A stretch of DNA of 64,000 nucleotides. It comes from Granulosicoccus sp. Lineage in GTDB: Bacteria > Pseudomonadota > Gammaproteobacteria > Granulosicoccales > Granulosicoccaceae. Numbering within the stretch: the first letter of the stretch is position 1; the number at the start of each line of letters is the position of its first letter. Below the pieces are notes generated by a model. It made no database searches. It worked only from the letters and a program-made list of their open reading frames with translations, and had not been told where the DNA came from. Made by a program: the position numbers and the translations under genes. The DNA lies in contig JALZUD010000055.1 of NCBI GenBank assembly GCA_023301725.1, positions 1-64,000 on the forward strand, in the 5' to 3' direction. This document shows positions 5,217 through 35,150 of this stretch, piece by piece.

Positions 5217-6641
5217 TTAAAAATTCCAAAGTGGATTTTTCAGCGGCTCTGTTAACTCGACCAGCCAGTTATACGCACGCTCGTCACGAGATACCGTCGT
5301 CAGGTCCAGATCCGGTTTGAAAAACAACTGGCGATTTCGTCCGTTCAGCGAGCAACGGGACTCAACCGTTACACTAACGTCTGAGAAACCCTTGCGCTGC
5401 CACTCCTGCTCAAGAAACTGGCCGAATTGCCAGATCATGTCTGGAACACAAGACATTTTACGCACTTGTCTGGCATTCAAATGTTCTTTGGGGTGAACAC
5501 TCCATGTTTGATCGCCTGCGCGAACCTGAAAAATTGCCGTACTGGATTTGGAACGAAGCTTCATTCGCCAGCTGAATCGGTGCCCATCTTCAGTCCATGC
5601 AACATTTCCCGGAATAAACCAGTTACGCATGGGTATGAGCACTTGAAAGCTTAACCAAAGTGCCATTCCAGCCACGATAAACACACGCATGGGTGATAAC
5701 ACTCCACTGGTTACGCCAGTGTTAGCAAGGGAGCGTTCGTCGGTAAGCGTAGGTAATACGGGGTTACATTCATCCGTTTGATCAACAGATTCAATAGTAG
5801 AAGCTCGGCGAAGGTACCTATCGCGAAACCGGATAGGCCAATCAGGCTTAAAAAACAGAAAGCTGGCGAACCAGGTAAACCACGGGAATATCCCGATGTT
5901 AAACACGGTGTGATTCACCAGATGGAACACCGCGTACGCAGCTAACACCCACGGTCTGGCCCATTTGAAAAACAGTAAAGGCGCTCCTAACAGATGCAAA
6001 GCTATCGCACCATAAGCGCCTACCGCGATACCAAGATCACCGGTAAGCCATGTAAAAAACGGCGGGTAGCCATCACGCCGCGCATGCATCCATATTCTAA
6101 GCGGCTCGAGATTAAGCCAATCTGCATTCAGTTTAACGATACCGGCAAAAATCAGAATAATTTCCAACTGTGCCAATAAGACAACAATGGACCAGTAGGG
6201 AACAGTTGCCGATGCAACACGTGTATTGCGGCGAGCATCTACCGACCACTTACAATTAGCGGGTACAAATAGCATCACGATGCAGAACAGAATCACCATG
6301 TAGTAGTGGTTCAAGTACTCTGCTTGGTCGAGTAAAAAACTATAGGTAAAGCCCAGAGTAAAAACAAACAATGCAATGGTGTAGCGATACCCCACCATAA
6401 TGGCAAACGCACACAACGCCATAACACTCCAATGAATCCACAAACCAATACCCGGCCAAGGCACCACCCACTCAAAGTAGTGGTACTTGAACAACATGTC
6501 CGGTTCCAGGTTTTTGCAAGTAGGACACAGAAACAGGTTATTGATACTGTTAAATAACAGTAATGCGCCAAACCCAACACGAAAAGCAGCTAATGAGCTT
6601 GCATCTACCTGCTTAAATAATGTCTGGAATAGTGAATTCAT
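5217..6641 (-). CDS. HTTM domain / vitamin K-dependent gamma-carboxylase-like integral membrane protein
   Basis: 474 aa multi-TM; AGIVKLNADWLN and FHLVNHTVFNIGIFPW motifs; soluble C-terminal part HRFSWRMKLRSKSSTAIFQV typical of VKGC homologues. Confidence 0.8.
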   Translation of the reverse strand: MNSLFQTLFKQVDASSLAAFRVGFGALLLFNSINNLFLCPTCKNLEPDMLFKYHYFEWVVPWPGIGLWIHWSVMALCAFAIMVGYRYTIALFVFTLGFTYSFLLDQAEYLNHYYMVILFCIVMLFVPANCKWSVDARRNTRVASATVPYWSIVVLLAQLEIILIFAGIVKLNADWLNLEPLRIWMHARRDGYPPFFTWLTGDLGIAVGAYGAIALHLLGAPLLFFKWARPWVLAAYAVFHLVNHTVFNIGIFPWFTWFASFLFFKPDWPIRFRDRYLRRASTIESVDQTDECNPVLPTLTDERSLANTGVTSGVLSPMRVFIVAGMALWLSFQVLIPMRNWFIPGNVAWTEDGHRFSWRMKLRSKSSTAIFQVRAGDQTWSVHPKEHLNARQVRKMSCVPDMIWQFGQFLEQEWQRKGFSDVSVTVESRCSLNGRNRQLFFKPDLDLTTVSRDERAYNWLVELTEPLKNPLWNF

Positions 6642-28128: not shown

Positions 28129-28899
28129 TTACAGATTAGACAAATAGGCCTCCAATGCGCAGACATCATCAGGGCTATCTACCCCACGCGCAGGACTATT
28201 TTTAACAATTCCAACATGAATGCGACCGCCGTGATAAAGCACGCGTAGTTGCTCAAGCTGTTCTTCTTTCTCAAGTTCACAAGGTTGCAAATTCTGGTAG
28301 CGATGCAAATAGCCGCAGCGGTAAGCGTACATGCCAATGTGCAAGTAACTGGCAGGCATGGTGGCATCGGTGGCTGGTGTATTGCTCAGCAAGGCTTGGC
28401 GCTGTGCCGGAATACTGGCTCTGCTGAAATACAGCGCCATATCTCTGTGATCACGCACCACTTTCACTCGATTGACATTGGCGTAATCCTCAGCCGATGT
28501 CATCTGCATACACAGTGTGGCCATGTCAGCATGAGGGTGCGCCTGTAAGTTACCTGCAAGCACATCCAGATGCTCTGCGGGTGTGGCTGGCTCATCGCCT
28601 TGCAGTCCAACGATAATCTGATCGTCCGTCCATTGTCTGCGCTGTGCCACTTCGGCAATTCTGTCTGTGCCGCTAGGATGATCTTCGCGAGTCATCTCCA
28701 CGTCTAACCCTGCATCCGTGCACACGCGAGCGATGCGTTCATCGTCAGTGGCAATCACAACAGTAGTGGCTGCCGACTCCTCAGCTCGCTTGGCCGTATG
28801 CAGAATCATGGGTAAACCGTTAAGAGGATGCAACGGCTTACCAGGGAACCGGGCGGAGGCGTAGCGCGCGGGTATAACAACGCTGTACGGCTGTTGCAT
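28129..28899 (-). CDS. kdsB: 3-deoxy-manno-octulosonate cytidylyltransferase
   Basis: VVIPARYASARFPGKPLHPLNGLPMILHTAKRA; IIVGLQGDEPATPAEHLD. Confidence 0.95.
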   Translation of the reverse strand: MQQPYSVVIPARYASARFPGKPLHPLNGLPMILHTAKRAEESAATTVVIATDDERIARVCTDAGLDVEMTREDHPSGTDRIAEVAQRRQWTDDQIIVGLQGDEPATPAEHLDVLAGNLQAHPHADMATLCMQMTSAEDYANVNRVKVVRDHRDMALYFSRASIPAQRQALLSNTPATDATMPASYLHIGMYAYRCGYLHRYQNLQPCELEKEEQLEQLRVLYHGGRIHVGIVKNSPARGVDSPDDVCALEAYLSNL

Positions 28900-28905
28900 G
28901 TGTCG

Positions 28906-29964
28906 TTAGTCCTGAGCTTTTGTTAACTTTTCACTTTGAAGCTGCGCTTCAAGTTGCACTATGCCTACCTGCAGAGCGTCTGTAACGCAAACTGTAGTTT
29001 GCACCTCGAACACCTCCACCGGCAAAGCTCCCAAAGCACGAAGCTTAACCGCGTCTTTCGAGGTAACCAGTAAGGGTAAGTTGTGTTCGGTTTTCACATC
29101 GTCTGTTGAATATACATGGTGATCAGGTTTAGCAATACCCGTAACCTTCAGACCTGCTTGAGTTAGCGCGTTAAAAAAACGTGCCGGATGGCCAATACCT
29201 GCCATGGCCACAACCGACCGACCCTGCCAGTCATCAATAGATTGCGTTTGCTCGTCACGCAAACTTACCGTGCTAGACAATTGCAAGTTAAAACGTTGAG
29301 TTTGGAAAGGATTCTCCTCACCCGAATTGTGCAATTGCGCTAACGATTCATGAACGGTATCGCTTCCTTGAGTTGCCACCAAGTCAGCACGACGCCACCG
29401 CTTATACGACTCACGTAACGGCCCGGCGGGTAAAAGCCAACGGTTACCAAAGCCACGCTCGCCATCGACCACTAACACTGTGGCGGATCGATCCATGGCC
29501 AAGTGCTGCAGCCCATCATCTGAAAATACAATGTCGCAGTTAGTCTGATCGTTTATATAAGACACGGCATCTGCACGTTTTACGCAAACACACACTGGCA
29601 CACCGGTTTGTCGAGATAGCATTAAAGGCTCGTCACCAACCACTTCCGCAGTATCGCTATCAGCAATGAGATGAGGCTGAACGTGACGATGACCACCATA
29701 GCCTCTGGTAACGATAGCAGGTCTCCAACCCCATGCTTTGAATTTTTCAACAAGAAAGGCGGTGAGCGGTGTTTTACCGGTACCGCCCACTACAAGGTTG
29801 CCCACTACTACCACTGGCATAGGAGACTGGATTGTTTTAAACAAGCCCGTGGTATAGCCAAGACGGCGTATGAAAATAAGCAGTCGGTACACTTGCGATA
29901 TGGGCCATAAGAGGTACGCACGCATGCCGCGTGCACGCCATAGTCTCTCTATACTTCGGCTCAT
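28906..29964 (-). CDS. lpxK: tetraacyldisaccharide 4'-kinase
   Basis: VVVGNLVVGGTGKTPLTAFLVEKF; VTRGYGGH; VFSDDGLQHLAMDRS. Confidence 0.95.
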   Translation of the reverse strand: MSRSIERLWRARGMRAYLLWPISQVYRLLIFIRRLGYTTGLFKTIQSPMPVVVVGNLVVGGTGKTPLTAFLVEKFKAWGWRPAIVTRGYGGHRHVQPHLIADSDTAEVVGDEPLMLSRQTGVPVCVCVKRADAVSYINDQTNCDIVFSDDGLQHLAMDRSATVLVVDGERGFGNRWLLPAGPLRESYKRWRRADLVATQGSDTVHESLAQLHNSGEENPFQTQRFNLQLSSTVSLRDEQTQSIDDWQGRSVVAMAGIGHPARFFNALTQAGLKVTGIAKPDHHVYSTDDVKTEHNLPLLVTSKDAVKLRALGALPVEVFEVQTTVCVTDALQVGIVQLEAQLQSEKLTKAQD

Positions 29965-30076
29965 GCCTGAGCCTCACATGGCAGTAAATTGAGCTTGATG
30001 GGTATACAGCACGTTTGCATGTGGTTCGACGAATTCTACAGTGAACAACTATTTATGGATATGCAGCGCTTGAACA

Positions 30077-30763
30077 CTACAATACAAAATTTAAGAAACT
30101 AGAAAATTCACACTCACCGTTTCTAATATCGTTCATGCGCCTCTCAAGAATTTCTTCTCCATCAGGTGCGCTGAAAATTCGCACGAGCGCTTCCAAAGAG
30201 TTGCGCCTCGCTTCTCTCAAGTGAACGTAATCCAGATTCAGTAAATCTATTGTGTACGAAGCCTTTTCACCATTTTCTACTCTTGCGCTTACTGCACCGG
30301 TCTCACTTTCCCAATAGAAACAGTCCGCGATGTTTTCGCACCTTGTTGGAAACAGAAAAAAATCGATGTCGATTTCGCCTCTCTTATGTTCATCACAAGA
30401 AACGTTATCCTGATCTGGCTTCTCGTGATTATCAGCTGGTGGAGGGTAACCAAAGCAAGATAGGACGATATTCTCATACCAATATCTGCGCCTTTCAACA
30501 CAGTCAGCTGATATGCCGTTCCTCTCAATCGCATCGCGCAACTCGCCTGACAGTGTACCTTGAGGAATCATATGCTCAATCACCTCGCTCTTGTTTTCTC
30601 CTCCTCTTAGCTGTCTTTCACAATAGGCACACGTACCATTTTGTTCAGAGTAAAGACTTTCTTTTAGTTCTTCTCTACACGGCGCACCGAATTCTCTCCA
30701 TGGCATGTCAGCTGCTATGTCAGACAGGCAATCTGGCCCTTTGCTCTTCTGTATGTACTTCAT
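30077..30763 (-). CDS. ptuB: Septu-like HNH nuclease PtuB (TIGR02646-like)
   Basis: MKYIQKSKGPDCL; CAYCERQL...EHMIPQ...YENIVLSCFG...CDEHKRGEID; ATGA overlap with the upstream AAA ATPase. Confidence 0.8.
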   Translation of the reverse strand: MKYIQKSKGPDCLSDIAADMPWREFGAPCREELKESLYSEQNGTCAYCERQLRGGENKSEVIEHMIPQGTLSGELRDAIERNGISADCVERRRYWYENIVLSCFGYPPPADNHEKPDQDNVSCDEHKRGEIDIDFFLFPTRCENIADCFYWESETGAVSARVENGEKASYTIDLLNLDYVHLREARRNSLEALVRIFSAPDGEEILERRMNDIRNGECEFSSFLNFVL

Positions 30764-31917
30764 TTTTTTCGTTGCAGAGCGCTAAGTAGTTTTAACTCTT
30801 GAAAAAATACGCTGTCTACATTTTCATACTCTAGAATTTTTTCCCTCAGATCCTTTGCCTTGTGACTATCTTCATCACCAGCTTTAAATAGTTTTCGGTA
30901 TTCAATCTTTAACCCTTCAACTTCTCTAGGCTGACCCGGCGCATTCATAATGCCCTTAAGCACGCTACTTCCGTCTGAACCACTGGGAGGCCCATTCAGC
31001 TTACTGGCCTTAACACCTTGTTCATTTCTTGCAATAACCTGAACATTTTTCCAAGACGTTGAACTCAAAACTTGAGGAGAGTGAGTAGCAAAAATGAACT
31101 GATTCCCTGTTCCGATAGCACTATAAAGCTTCAAAATATCGTATTGCCATGTAGGATGCAGCGCAGCCTCAGGTTCATCAATCAGAATTATCGAATTATT
31201 CGGTTGAAGCATCATCAAACCAATTAAACGACTGTATATTTGTTTTTCTCCATCACTCAAATCGTCGATGGATACTTCGTCACCAGATATATTCTTAAAG
31301 ACAGGTTTATTGAGCAAAGCAGCGTCCAGCTTGTGGAGTGACACTGTTGGTTCTAATACTTTAAATTTATCATTAAATATTTTAATCGCCTTGCTCGCCC
31401 TTAGCTTTGAGCTACTCTCTTCAACCAACCTTTCTTGAGCAATCACATATTCTTTGATATACACAACTGCTTTCTTAATAACATCTCGACTAATCTCGTA
31501 GGAGAATTGGTAATTGAGGTCCAATTGTCCTAGATTGGATCCAGCTGAATCCATACTAATAAGCGCTGGCATATAAATTATTTGCGAATTAGCGAACGGA
31601 GGCGTGTCTCCGGCAGTCAATTTGGATACTTCACTCAGTAGATTTCCAAGGTACCGTCGATCCAAATCTCCATTTACGAGTTTGTGGAGTACTGGAAAAT
31701 CTGGATAATCTACCAAGTCCAGTTTTGCTCCACCCTCATCGAGTGCGAAACCCGTGTTGTAGAACTTAGCAATTAACTCTAAGATCGACGTTTTTCCAGC
31801 GCCGTTTTTACCTACCAGTACGTCAACAGAGTTATGGTTATCGACCGGACTGTTAAATTCGATATGTAAGTCGTTGAGGCCTCTGTAATTCTTAATCTGC
31901 AAAGATTTAATATGCAT
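30760..31917 (-). CDS. ptuA: Septu-like AAA/ABC-type ATPase PtuA
   Basis: MHIKSLQIKNYRGLNDL; Walker A VGKNGAGKTSILE; DLSDGEKQIYSR; Walker B IILIDEPEAALHPTWQ; FATHSPQVL; start taken at internal ATG 31917. Confidence 0.82.
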   Translation of the reverse strand: MHIKSLQIKNYRGLNDLHIEFNSPVDNHNSVDVLVGKNGAGKTSILELIAKFYNTGFALDEGGAKLDLVDYPDFPVLHKLVNGDLDRRYLGNLLSEVSKLTAGDTPPFANSQIIYMPALISMDSAGSNLGQLDLNYQFSYEISRDVIKKAVVYIKEYVIAQERLVEESSSKLRASKAIKIFNDKFKVLEPTVSLHKLDAALLNKPVFKNISGDEVSIDDLSDGEKQIYSRLIGLMMLQPNNSIILIDEPEAALHPTWQYDILKLYSAIGTGNQFIFATHSPQVLSSTSWKNVQVIARNEQGVKASKLNGPPSGSDGSSVLKGIMNAPGQPREVEGLKIEYRKLFKAGDEDSHKAKDLREKILEYENVDSVFFQELKLLSALQRKK

Positions 31918-32236
31918 CAAATATTCTCGTGAAACAGCGCATGCGTATTCTGACCAAAGCAATCACTTGTTCTAAAGTGAAGTGATCACATGATTTACTC
32001 AACACCCGAGTGCCGATGATAACACTCGAAATGAACGCATTGCCGTGGTGGCGGAGACGGCATGCAAGGCACAAAGCATTGATTCGCCTTTGAGATCAAT
32101 TCAGTGAACTTGGTCAATCGTCCACTGCCTAGACCAAATATGAGACGTCGATAGTGGATGAAATCCAGTAGAGTGAAGGCCGATTGATTCAGGCAGCTTT
32201 CTGCGCAACACCAAAGCCGCTAACAGTGTCAAAAAT

Positions 32237-34096
32237 TTAGCGAAATTGCAACTGGTGCAGCTTGTAGTAATGCGCCTGCTTAGCCAGTAACTCTTTATGG
32301 CTACCGATCTCCACTATTTGTCCTTTGTTCAACACCACAATGCGGTCAGCTTGTTCGATAGTGGACAAGCGATGCGCGATAACCAAGGTGGTGCGACCAA
32401 GCATAAGAGCATCCAAACCTTGTTGCACCTTTCTCTCCGACTCGGTATCCAGCGCAGAGGTTGCTTCGTCAAGGATAAGTATCGGTGCATTTTTTAACAA
32501 CGCCCGAGCTATGGCAACACGCTGCTTTTGCCCACCAGAAAGCATCACCCCATTCTCTCCCACCATGGTGGCGTAACCATCCGGTAAAGAGATAATGAAG
32601 TCGTGCGCATGTGCAGCCTTACACGCTGTATGCAACGTAGCCTCGTCGACGGTTTCGCTGCTCCCGTAGGCAATATTGCTGGCTATCGTGTCATTAAACA
32701 ACATGACATCCTGACTTACTGTGGCAATTCTGCCGCGCAGTGATCGCAATGTGTACTCATCTACAGGCTTGTCGTTGACTCGCATTTCTCCTGAGTCAAG
32801 TTCGTACAAACGGGGTAATAGATTGACCAAAGAGGTTTTTCCACTCCCCGACTCACCCACAAAGGCAACAGTTTCGCCAGCAGCAATACTCAGGGAAATG
32901 TTTTGCAGCACCACAGGTTTGTCTTCGGTGTACCTCAAACAAACGTCACGATATTCGATAGATTGAATACTGGCATCCAGTATGTCCGTGCCATGATCCC
33001 GCTCAGATTCCAGATCAAGAATAGCGAAAAGACTCTCGCCTGCGGCAATGCCTTTTTGAATCTGACTATTTAGCGTAGTCATGCGCTTAAGCGGTGAAAA
33101 TAACAAAAGCATCGCAGTGATGAATGACATAAAACTGCCCACTGAAATACGATCAGCCACATCACCACTGGATGCAATATAAACAATGGTCGCCAAAGCA
33201 AGCGCTACCAGTAACTGCACGATAGGTTCGTTTAATGCCTTAACTACCGTCTCTTTCATATTAAAAGCACGGTTACTTTCATTGGCCAGCTCGAACTGCG
33301 CCATCTCCTCGTCCTGACCACCAAATATCTTGATAACCCGAGCGCCTTCAACTGCTTCCTGAATGACATGACTGACTTCACCCATAGAGCCCTGAATACT
33401 ACGACTGATGGAGCGAAATTTCTTACTGACTCGGGCGACAATTATGACGATAGCCGGACCAATGACCAGAAAGATCAGCGCCAGTTGCCAGCTCTGATAA
33501 AACATAAGACCTAGCAAGCCAATAGCTGTGAGCGAATCACGGACGATAACAGTCAGAGAATTACTTGCTGCATTTGCCACCATTTGACTGTTAAAAGTGA
33601 TGCGCGAAATCAGCTCCCCTGAGGAGGATCTGTCGTAGAAAGCAGTTGGCAAGGTGAGGTATTTTTCAAAGATCTCACCTCTTAATTGCTTGATAACCCG
33701 CCATCCAATCCATGCAATGTAATAGGTAGATGCAAAACCTGCGATACCACGAAGTAGAAAAATACCGATGATCATTAGCGGGATAAATAGAATAGCCGAT
33801 TGATCCTGATCGACAAAACTACCATCGAGCATGGGCTTCATCAAAGCAGCAAAAGCTGTGTCTGTGATGGCGTAACCCAGCATTCCGGCAACCGCAATGG
33901 CAAACTGTTTTTTGTACGGTTTGATGTAAGTGAGCAGCCGGCGATAAGTATCAGCGCCAGAAACACTGACTGGCCCCGCCGATGCGCCATCGGCTGGTGT
34001 GTTAACGCTCACCTTCGCAGATTTGCCCCTTCTATCTCCGGCGCCTGTTTTACCGTCAACTGGGGCAGCTTCCTTCGCACGCTTATCAGCCTTCAT
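32237..34096 (-). CDS. msbA: lipid A export ABC transporter permease/ATP-binding protein
   Basis: 619 aa; TM domain plus GESGSGKTSLVNLLPRLYELDSGEM, LSGGQKQRVAIARALLKNAPILILDEATSALD. Confidence 0.93.
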   Translation of the reverse strand: MKADKRAKEAAPVDGKTGAGDRRGKSAKVSVNTPADGASAGPVSVSGADTYRRLLTYIKPYKKQFAIAVAGMLGYAITDTAFAALMKPMLDGSFVDQDQSAILFIPLMIIGIFLLRGIAGFASTYYIAWIGWRVIKQLRGEIFEKYLTLPTAFYDRSSSGELISRITFNSQMVANAASNSLTVIVRDSLTAIGLLGLMFYQSWQLALIFLVIGPAIVIIVARVSKKFRSISRSIQGSMGEVSHVIQEAVEGARVIKIFGGQDEEMAQFELANESNRAFNMKETVVKALNEPIVQLLVALALATIVYIASSGDVADRISVGSFMSFITAMLLLFSPLKRMTTLNSQIQKGIAAGESLFAILDLESERDHGTDILDASIQSIEYRDVCLRYTEDKPVVLQNISLSIAAGETVAFVGESGSGKTSLVNLLPRLYELDSGEMRVNDKPVDEYTLRSLRGRIATVSQDVMLFNDTIASNIAYGSSETVDEATLHTACKAAHAHDFIISLPDGYATMVGENGVMLSGGQKQRVAIARALLKNAPILILDEATSALDTESERKVQQGLDALMLGRTTLVIAHRLSTIEQADRIVVLNKGQIVEIGSHKELLAKQAHYYKLHQLQFR

Positions 34097-34107
34097 GATT
34101 GATCGTG

Positions 34108-34524
34108 CTATTCAGCAGTTCGAGATGTGGCGATAGTTATATTCAAAATCCCCAGCTGTCCTGATGCATCCATTGCCGTCACAACCGCCTGGTGGGGAAC
34201 CTGTGCATCCGCTCTAATGGTAAGCGGAATATCCCGGCGGCCTTGAGACACCTTATATAATGCGTTTTGCAAGCTGACCAAATCAGACTTAACCACTTCC
34301 TGATCGTCTATAAAAAAACGACCGGCTGCGTTAATCACAATCTCTATTCGTTCCGCTGCAGCTGTTGTTTCTGTTTCGGTTGCCTGCGGAAGTTGTAAGG
34401 ATATTTGCGACTCTTTTTGAAAGGTGGTGGACACCATAAAAAAAATGAGGAGCAGAAACACCACATCGATGAGTGGCGTTAGATTGAGTTCCAGTTCTTC
34501 GCTCTGGGCTCGGGCAAACTTCAT
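34108..34524 (-). CDS. exbD: ExbD/TolR family biopolymer transport protein
   Basis: LNLTPLIDVVFLLLIFFMVSTTF. Confidence 0.92.
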   Translation of the reverse strand: MKFARAQSEELELNLTPLIDVVFLLLIFFMVSTTFQKESQISLQLPQATETETTAAAERIEIVINAAGRFFIDDQEVVKSDLVSLQNALYKVSQGRRDIPLTIRADAQVPHQAVVTAMDASGQLGILNITIATSRTAE

Positions 34525-35150
34525 CGTGCCGCAACCCTGGCAGCCGTCTGGCGCTTCTGCAGCACATCGACAAGCTTCAACGATTCTTTTTCCATATCAA
34601 CAATAAGGCCATCAACCTTGCCCTTAAAATATCGATGAAACATGAGCGCAGGTATAGCGACCATCAATCCACCCGCTGTCGTAATCAATGCTTGCGATAT
34701 TCCACCTGCCAACTGCGCCGGATTTCCGACGCCCACGGTGGTGATGTTGGTAAAGACGCTAATCATACCCACAACTGTTCCGAGCAATCCGATGAGTGGA
34801 GTTACCGCTGCTATGGTGCCAAGCGCGTTCAGGTATCGGGTTAATTCATGAGCTACATGACCGCCCACCTCTTCAATGCTGGCTTTCATGATTTCGCGAT
34901 CCTGGCTTCTGTTTGCAAGCCCTGCAGCCAACACGCGCCCTAATGGGGAGCCCTGCTGAATGTCACGGATTTTGTCATCATCCAGCTGCCGCGTACTTGC
35001 CATGCGCCAAACGTCAGCGACTAGATTATCCGGGATGACCTTTTCTCGACGTAACGAAATGAATCGTTCGCCTACTATAGCCAGCGCAACGATTGAACAG
35101 ATCACAATCGGAACCATCAACCAGCCACCAGCAGTTACTATTTCCCACAC
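34521..35150 (-). CDS. exbB: MotA/TolQ/ExbB proton channel family protein
   Basis: TPLIGLLGTVVGMISVF; GISQALITTAGGLMVAIPALMFHRYF. Confidence 0.92.
   Translation of the reverse strand: MWEIVTAGGWLMVPIVICSIVALAIVGERFISLRREKVIPDNLVADVWRMASTRQLDDDKIRDIQQGSPLGRVLAAGLANRSQDREIMKASIEEVGGHVAHELTRYLNALGTIAAVTPLIGLLGTVVGMISVFTNITTVGVGNPAQLAGGISQALITTAGGLMVAIPALMFHRYFKGKVDGLIVDMEKESLKLVDVLQKRQTAARVAAR

Follow-up and report, generated by a model that had tools for sequence, protein, structure and literature searches.

A reverse transcriptase-less Septu gene pair inserted between the lipid A genes msbA and lpxK in a Granulosicoccus species

The window analysed here is a stretch of 64,000 nucleotides from Granulosicoccus sp., in which two minus-strand open reading frames (ORFs), for an ATPase and an HNH protein, lie between msbA and lpxK (Table 1). 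The original prediction, made from the nucleotide sequence, had described these ORFs as overlapping by ATGA, and their coordinates, their strand and every motif quoted for them were confirmed; the neighbours that it named (msbA, lpxK, kdsB and exbB/exbD) were all recovered by TIGR or Pfam profiles. According to the ORF coordinates, both genes are co-directional with the flanking lipid A genes. Upstream, the comEC–exbB–exbD–msbA run is tight, with overlaps or 11 bp spacing, and downstream only 6 bp separate lpxK from kdsB. The pair had also been described as AT-richer than its flanks, and ptuA and ptuB indeed have the two lowest GC contents among the 40 large ORFs of the window (overall GC 0.49), i.e., 0.400 for ptuA, which is also lowest in GC3 (0.367), and 0.441 for ptuB.

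Table 1. Features of the msbA–lpxK region, in window coordinates
Feature	Coordinates	Strand	Details
exbB and exbD, upstream in the tight gene run	34108..35150	minus	Pfam PF01618, PF02472
msbA, lipid A flippase	32237..34096	minus	TIGR02203, 732.7 bits, above cut-off
Whole insert, msbA stop to lpxK start	29965..32236	minus	2,272 bp; blastn against G019, the nearest relative
Stretch between msbA stop and IS21 remnant	32119..32236	minus	118 bp
Decayed IS21-family right end	31942..32118	minus	Similarity to IS21 copies of congeners
ptuA	30760..31917	minus	385 aa; ATG at 31917, stop at 30760
ptuB	30077..30763	minus	228 aa; start at 30763
Spacer, ptuB stop to lpxK ATG	29965..30076	minus	112 bp
lpxK, tetraacyldisaccharide 4'-kinase	28906..29964	minus	TIGR00682, 238 bits; PF02606
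kdsB, CMP-KDO synthetase	28129..28899	minus	TIGR00466, 259.9 bits

The pair belongs to PtuA/PtuB, and the profile assignment is far beyond chance. The profile search proposed along with the original prediction of a Septu module places both proteins in this defence family: PtuA matches the PADLOC model PDLC00289 (E 4.5e-76, profile positions 1–380 of 404), and PtuB matches PDLC00332 over its full length (E 5.6e-27) as well as HNH_I-A (E 1.6e-28). Pfam detects AAA_15/AAA_21 in PtuA and no domain in PtuB, and a phmmer search of the PDB matches PtuA to the retron Ec78 PtuA and to the Septu PtuA 8ee4. The NCBIfam PtuA and PtuB equivalogs score below their curated cut-offs (127 of 500 and 78 of 150 bits, respectively; PtuB reaches E 8e-22 with NF041761, yet stays under the cut-off), but these cut-offs were set on the retron Ec78 proteins, and such scores are expected because the pair is of a distant, RT-less type. 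Weaker PADLOC matches link PtuA to ATPase_I-A and to PARIS AriA/AbiLi-type ATPases; the latter share the ATPase superfamily with PtuA, whereas the partner here is an HNH protein rather than a TOPRIM (AriB-like) protein.

Both active sites are retained. PtuA carries Walker A GKNGAGKTS (K42), LSDGEKQ, Walker B LIDEPE (D247/E248) and FATHS (H279), and PtuB carries CAYCE (C45, C48), EH (H64), YEN (N98), C103, C123 and K127, which its relatives conserve. In alignments with the two nearest relatives that have an adjacent HNH gene (L084 and L106, described below), K42, D247/E248 and the FATHS histidine of PtuA, as well as C45/C48, H64 and N98 of PtuB, are invariant. The Walker residues of PtuA and the H-N-H residues of PtuB were reported to be required for immunity in Septu EcB88, which cleaves tRNA-Tyr (PMC13096335), and the corresponding Walker A/B and H-N-H residues are present here (K42, D247/E248; H64, N98). 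PtuA identity is low, only 27–28% even to these nearest paired relatives, and because identity to any characterised PtuAB is low, target and trigger are not readable from the sequence. The predicted structure of PtuB, with a pLDDT of 36, is too poor for a fold search.

Septu with a reverse transcriptase, i.e., Septu type II, is equivalent to retron I-A (PMC8565338), whose members Ec78 and Eco7 use ATPase and HNH effectors homologous to the pair described here. No RVT_1 match was found anywhere in the genome, which is 94% complete, and no Rfam family, whether msr-msd or another known RNA, matches the insert. For these two reasons, gene content places the pair in RT-less (type I) Septu, and a retron identity was rejected. 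It is conceivable that only the effector half of an Ec78-like type I-A retron is seen, the RT and ncRNA needed as a brake on PtuAB having been lost or lying elsewhere; the HNH_I-A score of PtuB (98.1 bits) is indeed slightly above its PtuB1 score (92.9 bits), and PtuA matches ATPase_I-A as well (E 2.4e-36). However, PtuA scores 254.5 bits with the PtuA1 model versus 123.9 bits with ATPase_I-A, its top model is common to the two nearest paired relatives, and its 385 aa compare with about 550 aa in retron PtuA, which, together with the RVT_1 and Rfam results, makes a retron remnant very unlikely. The locus resembles type I Septu in its adjacent co-directional ATPase and HNH genes, the lack of an RT and the preservation of both active-site sets. 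In contrast to known type I Septu, PtuA is compact (385 aa vs. 465 aa in 8ee4) and of low identity, and the pair lies in an essential biosynthetic operon, not on a mobile element or in a defence island.

The alignment with relatives that the original prediction had suggested revealed an empty msbA–lpxK junction in every case that could be assayed. lpxK was sought in 57 genomes, this one and those of 56 relatives, and the comparison used the 30 best loci. Where the msbA–lpxK junction lay within the fetched stretch, msbA was directly followed by lpxK in 25 of 25 family genomes (23 congeners and two further family members), the two genes overlapping or lying up to about 90 bp apart; of the 26 congeners, three were not counted, with lpxK missing or at a contig edge. 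In the nearest relative, G019 (nucleotide identity of about 84%; amino acid identity of 91.5% for MsbA and 81% for LpxK), the spacer at the junction is 8 bp, and the blastn alignment ends with the msbA stop codon and picks up again at the lpxK start, leaving the 2,272 bp without a counterpart, while the sequence outside the insert is collinear over 21 kb at 81–85% nucleotide identity. No PtuA relative was detected in the 56 other genomes beyond generic ABC similarity (best E 3e-8), and none in the genus; nor was a near relative found among plasmids, phages, viral contigs, genome contigs and about 770 class- and phylum-level genomes. Thus, the site is a species-restricted insertion, as represented by one genome of the species, with precise empty sites in relatives. 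The empty sites, the absence of the genes from relatives and their foreign composition argue for horizontal acquisition, as had been proposed.

The same comparison bears on two further explanations. An assembly or binning chimera, in which the insert is not truly joined to msbA and lpxK, might be suspected from the 148-contig assembly, from the single genome available for the species and from the deviating GC of the insert. However, the insert lies in the middle of a contig of 103,254 bp, both flanks are collinear with G019, the breakpoints fall exactly at gene boundaries, and the IS21 type found in the leader is present in congeners, so that an artefact of this kind is most improbable. A housekeeping function in envelope biogenesis, for which the pair would have been co-opted in place of defence, could be suggested by its address in the lipid A operon but is scarcely credible, since the pair is absent from all congeners sharing the operon and its sequence family is one of defence.

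The 319-bp leader upstream of ptuA carries the decayed right-end remnant of an IS21-family element, i.e., a scar left by a mobile element. Here the original prediction, which was correct in noting no visible integrase, RT or retron RNA, had missed the element. The remnant consists of the final ~60 bp of istB (LKGESM), interrupted by an in-frame stop (leader positions 119–184), followed by terminal repeats ending in AATACGCA; the terminus ATACGCA lies at leader position 295, leaving 24 bp between the remnant and the ptuA ATG. The leader matches two IS21 copies of congener G011 at 70% over 84 bp, and the terminus coincides with the point at which these two copies diverge from each other. The local alignment score is 46, whereas the highest of 1000 dinucleotide shuffles scored 31, and tblastx shows the leader to be collinear with the istB end and terminus (E 1.2e-5). 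A second, different IS21 from congener G006 is collinear with the leader too, and with both elements the istB 3' end is followed by the right terminus in the order and spacing right for IS21. Neither a left end nor istA was found, and the genome itself yielded no complete copy of this IS21, the related copies being those of G006 and G011. The 118 bp beside msbA matched nothing in congeners or plasmids, a plasmid search with the leader gave no match, and no meaningful relative was found for the 112-bp tail spacer, its 21–23 bp matches in C81 and G014 being rejected as chance-like. The IS21 element may have carried the pair in, inserted next to it at a later time or given rise to a recombination, all three histories being compatible with the sequence. 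Two other vehicles were considered and rejected, namely an integron cassette (no attC-like core sites were seen by eye in the insert) and a transposon bounded by terminal inverted repeats at the two ends of the insert (repeats were only short and at chance level).

Transcription through the cassette from msbA into lpxK–kdsB is plausible, because the pair is co-directional and no strong intrinsic terminator lies on the operon strand; the essential operon may in turn stabilise the cassette, as had been suggested. No terminator-like hairpin was found in the 112-bp ptuB–lpxK spacer, which folds worse than its shuffles (z +1.63); terminator-like and promoter-like sites are about as frequent as in shuffled sequence, and on the operon strand both leader and tail are free of them. 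The lack of a recognisable sigma-70 promoter directly before ptuA, together with the decay of the adjoining IS21 remnant, would also fit a non-functional relic, i.e., hitch-hiked foreign DNA awaiting decay. This reading is unlikely, as neither ORF is disrupted and every catalytic residue is kept, whereas the adjoining IS21 remnant carries stops. The pair is best read as a horizontally acquired Septu that is probably functional and sits in an essential co-directional operon.

The explanation that best accommodates these observations, and that is very probably correct, is an RT-less (type I) Septu that was horizontally acquired and became fixed in the msbA–lpxK gap, with an IS21-family element as part of the segment or as an insertion into it. 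The module would have entered the short gap of the comEC–exbB–exbD–msbA–lpxK–kdsB run by horizontal transfer, and the IS21-family element, whether it arrived with the segment or later, would since have decayed to its right end. By analogy with tested Septu systems and retron Ec78, PtuA would form an ATP-binding oligomer that serves as sensor of infection and as scaffold and licenses PtuB, and PtuB, the HNH nuclease, would stop phage production by cutting DNA or a host tRNA. Both kinds of target have been described, in that the Septu of E. coli ATCC25922 was reported to target nicked DNA and the PtuAB of retron Eco7 to deplete tRNA-Tyr (PMC11555353). Read-through from msbA would transcribe the pair as part of the operon, and lpxK–kdsB would depend either on it or on a promoter located within the insert.

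Septu itself is already known, and what is unusual here is only its well-delimited address. Defence systems of E. coli are overwhelmingly carried by mobile elements, which occupy a few dozen hotspots (PMC10121019). A literature search found no report of defence genes in msbA–lpxK or in housekeeping operons, which is weak evidence of novelty, as subscription papers lay mostly outside the search. The locus offers a clean natural case, with a defence pair between essential lipid A genes, an empty site in a sister species and a mobile-element scar, for the questions of how immunity genes become chromosomal residents and whether read-through of an essential operon both drives and safeguards such genes.

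The two nearest relatives with an adjacent HNH gene, L084 (a Clostridium MAG) and L106 (Acetoanaerobium noterae), both Bacillota, are likewise RT-less PtuAB pairs with PDLC00289 as the top PtuA model, and both sit among ordinary chromosomal genes, although at addresses other than msbA–lpxK and with the low PtuA identity given above. L084 (1818–9179) is a second case of Septu between core genes, with PtuAB and one unknown 190-aa gene between secA and prfB, whose adjacency is common in Bacillota. At L106 (3896–8139), PtuAB lies 17 bp upstream of a polysaccharide-type run of aminotransferase-like, acetyltransferase and glycosyltransferase genes; the L106 record is labelled as a plasmid and has a size of 2.6 Mb. 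The three cases are a lead, not a pattern. A broader proposal, that compact RT-less Septu is repeatedly kept in essential co-directional operons (msbA–lpxK; secA–prfB), where it would borrow constitutive expression and resist loss, since a deletion would also damage essential neighbours, with delivery by IS21 in the present case, is rather doubtful. If true, operon embedding would be a way of fixing immunity independently of defence islands.

Several other loci came to light alongside these results. On the Arcobacter cloacae plasmid pACLO (L105 659–9107), a PtuA-like AAA ATPase gene forms part of a type I-B cas run, flanked by hypothetical genes on one side and cas7 on the other. Compact PtuA-like ATPases are also encoded at L086 and L089–L092, and at L086 and L090–L092 the next gene, of ~250 aa, encodes a protein with a TOPRIM-like start (VEGxDDIIFYR) rather than an HNH protein, in a PARIS-like arrangement. 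Elsewhere in the window, positions 5217–6641 encode a protein with HTTM and vitamin-K-dependent gamma-carboxylase lumenal domains.
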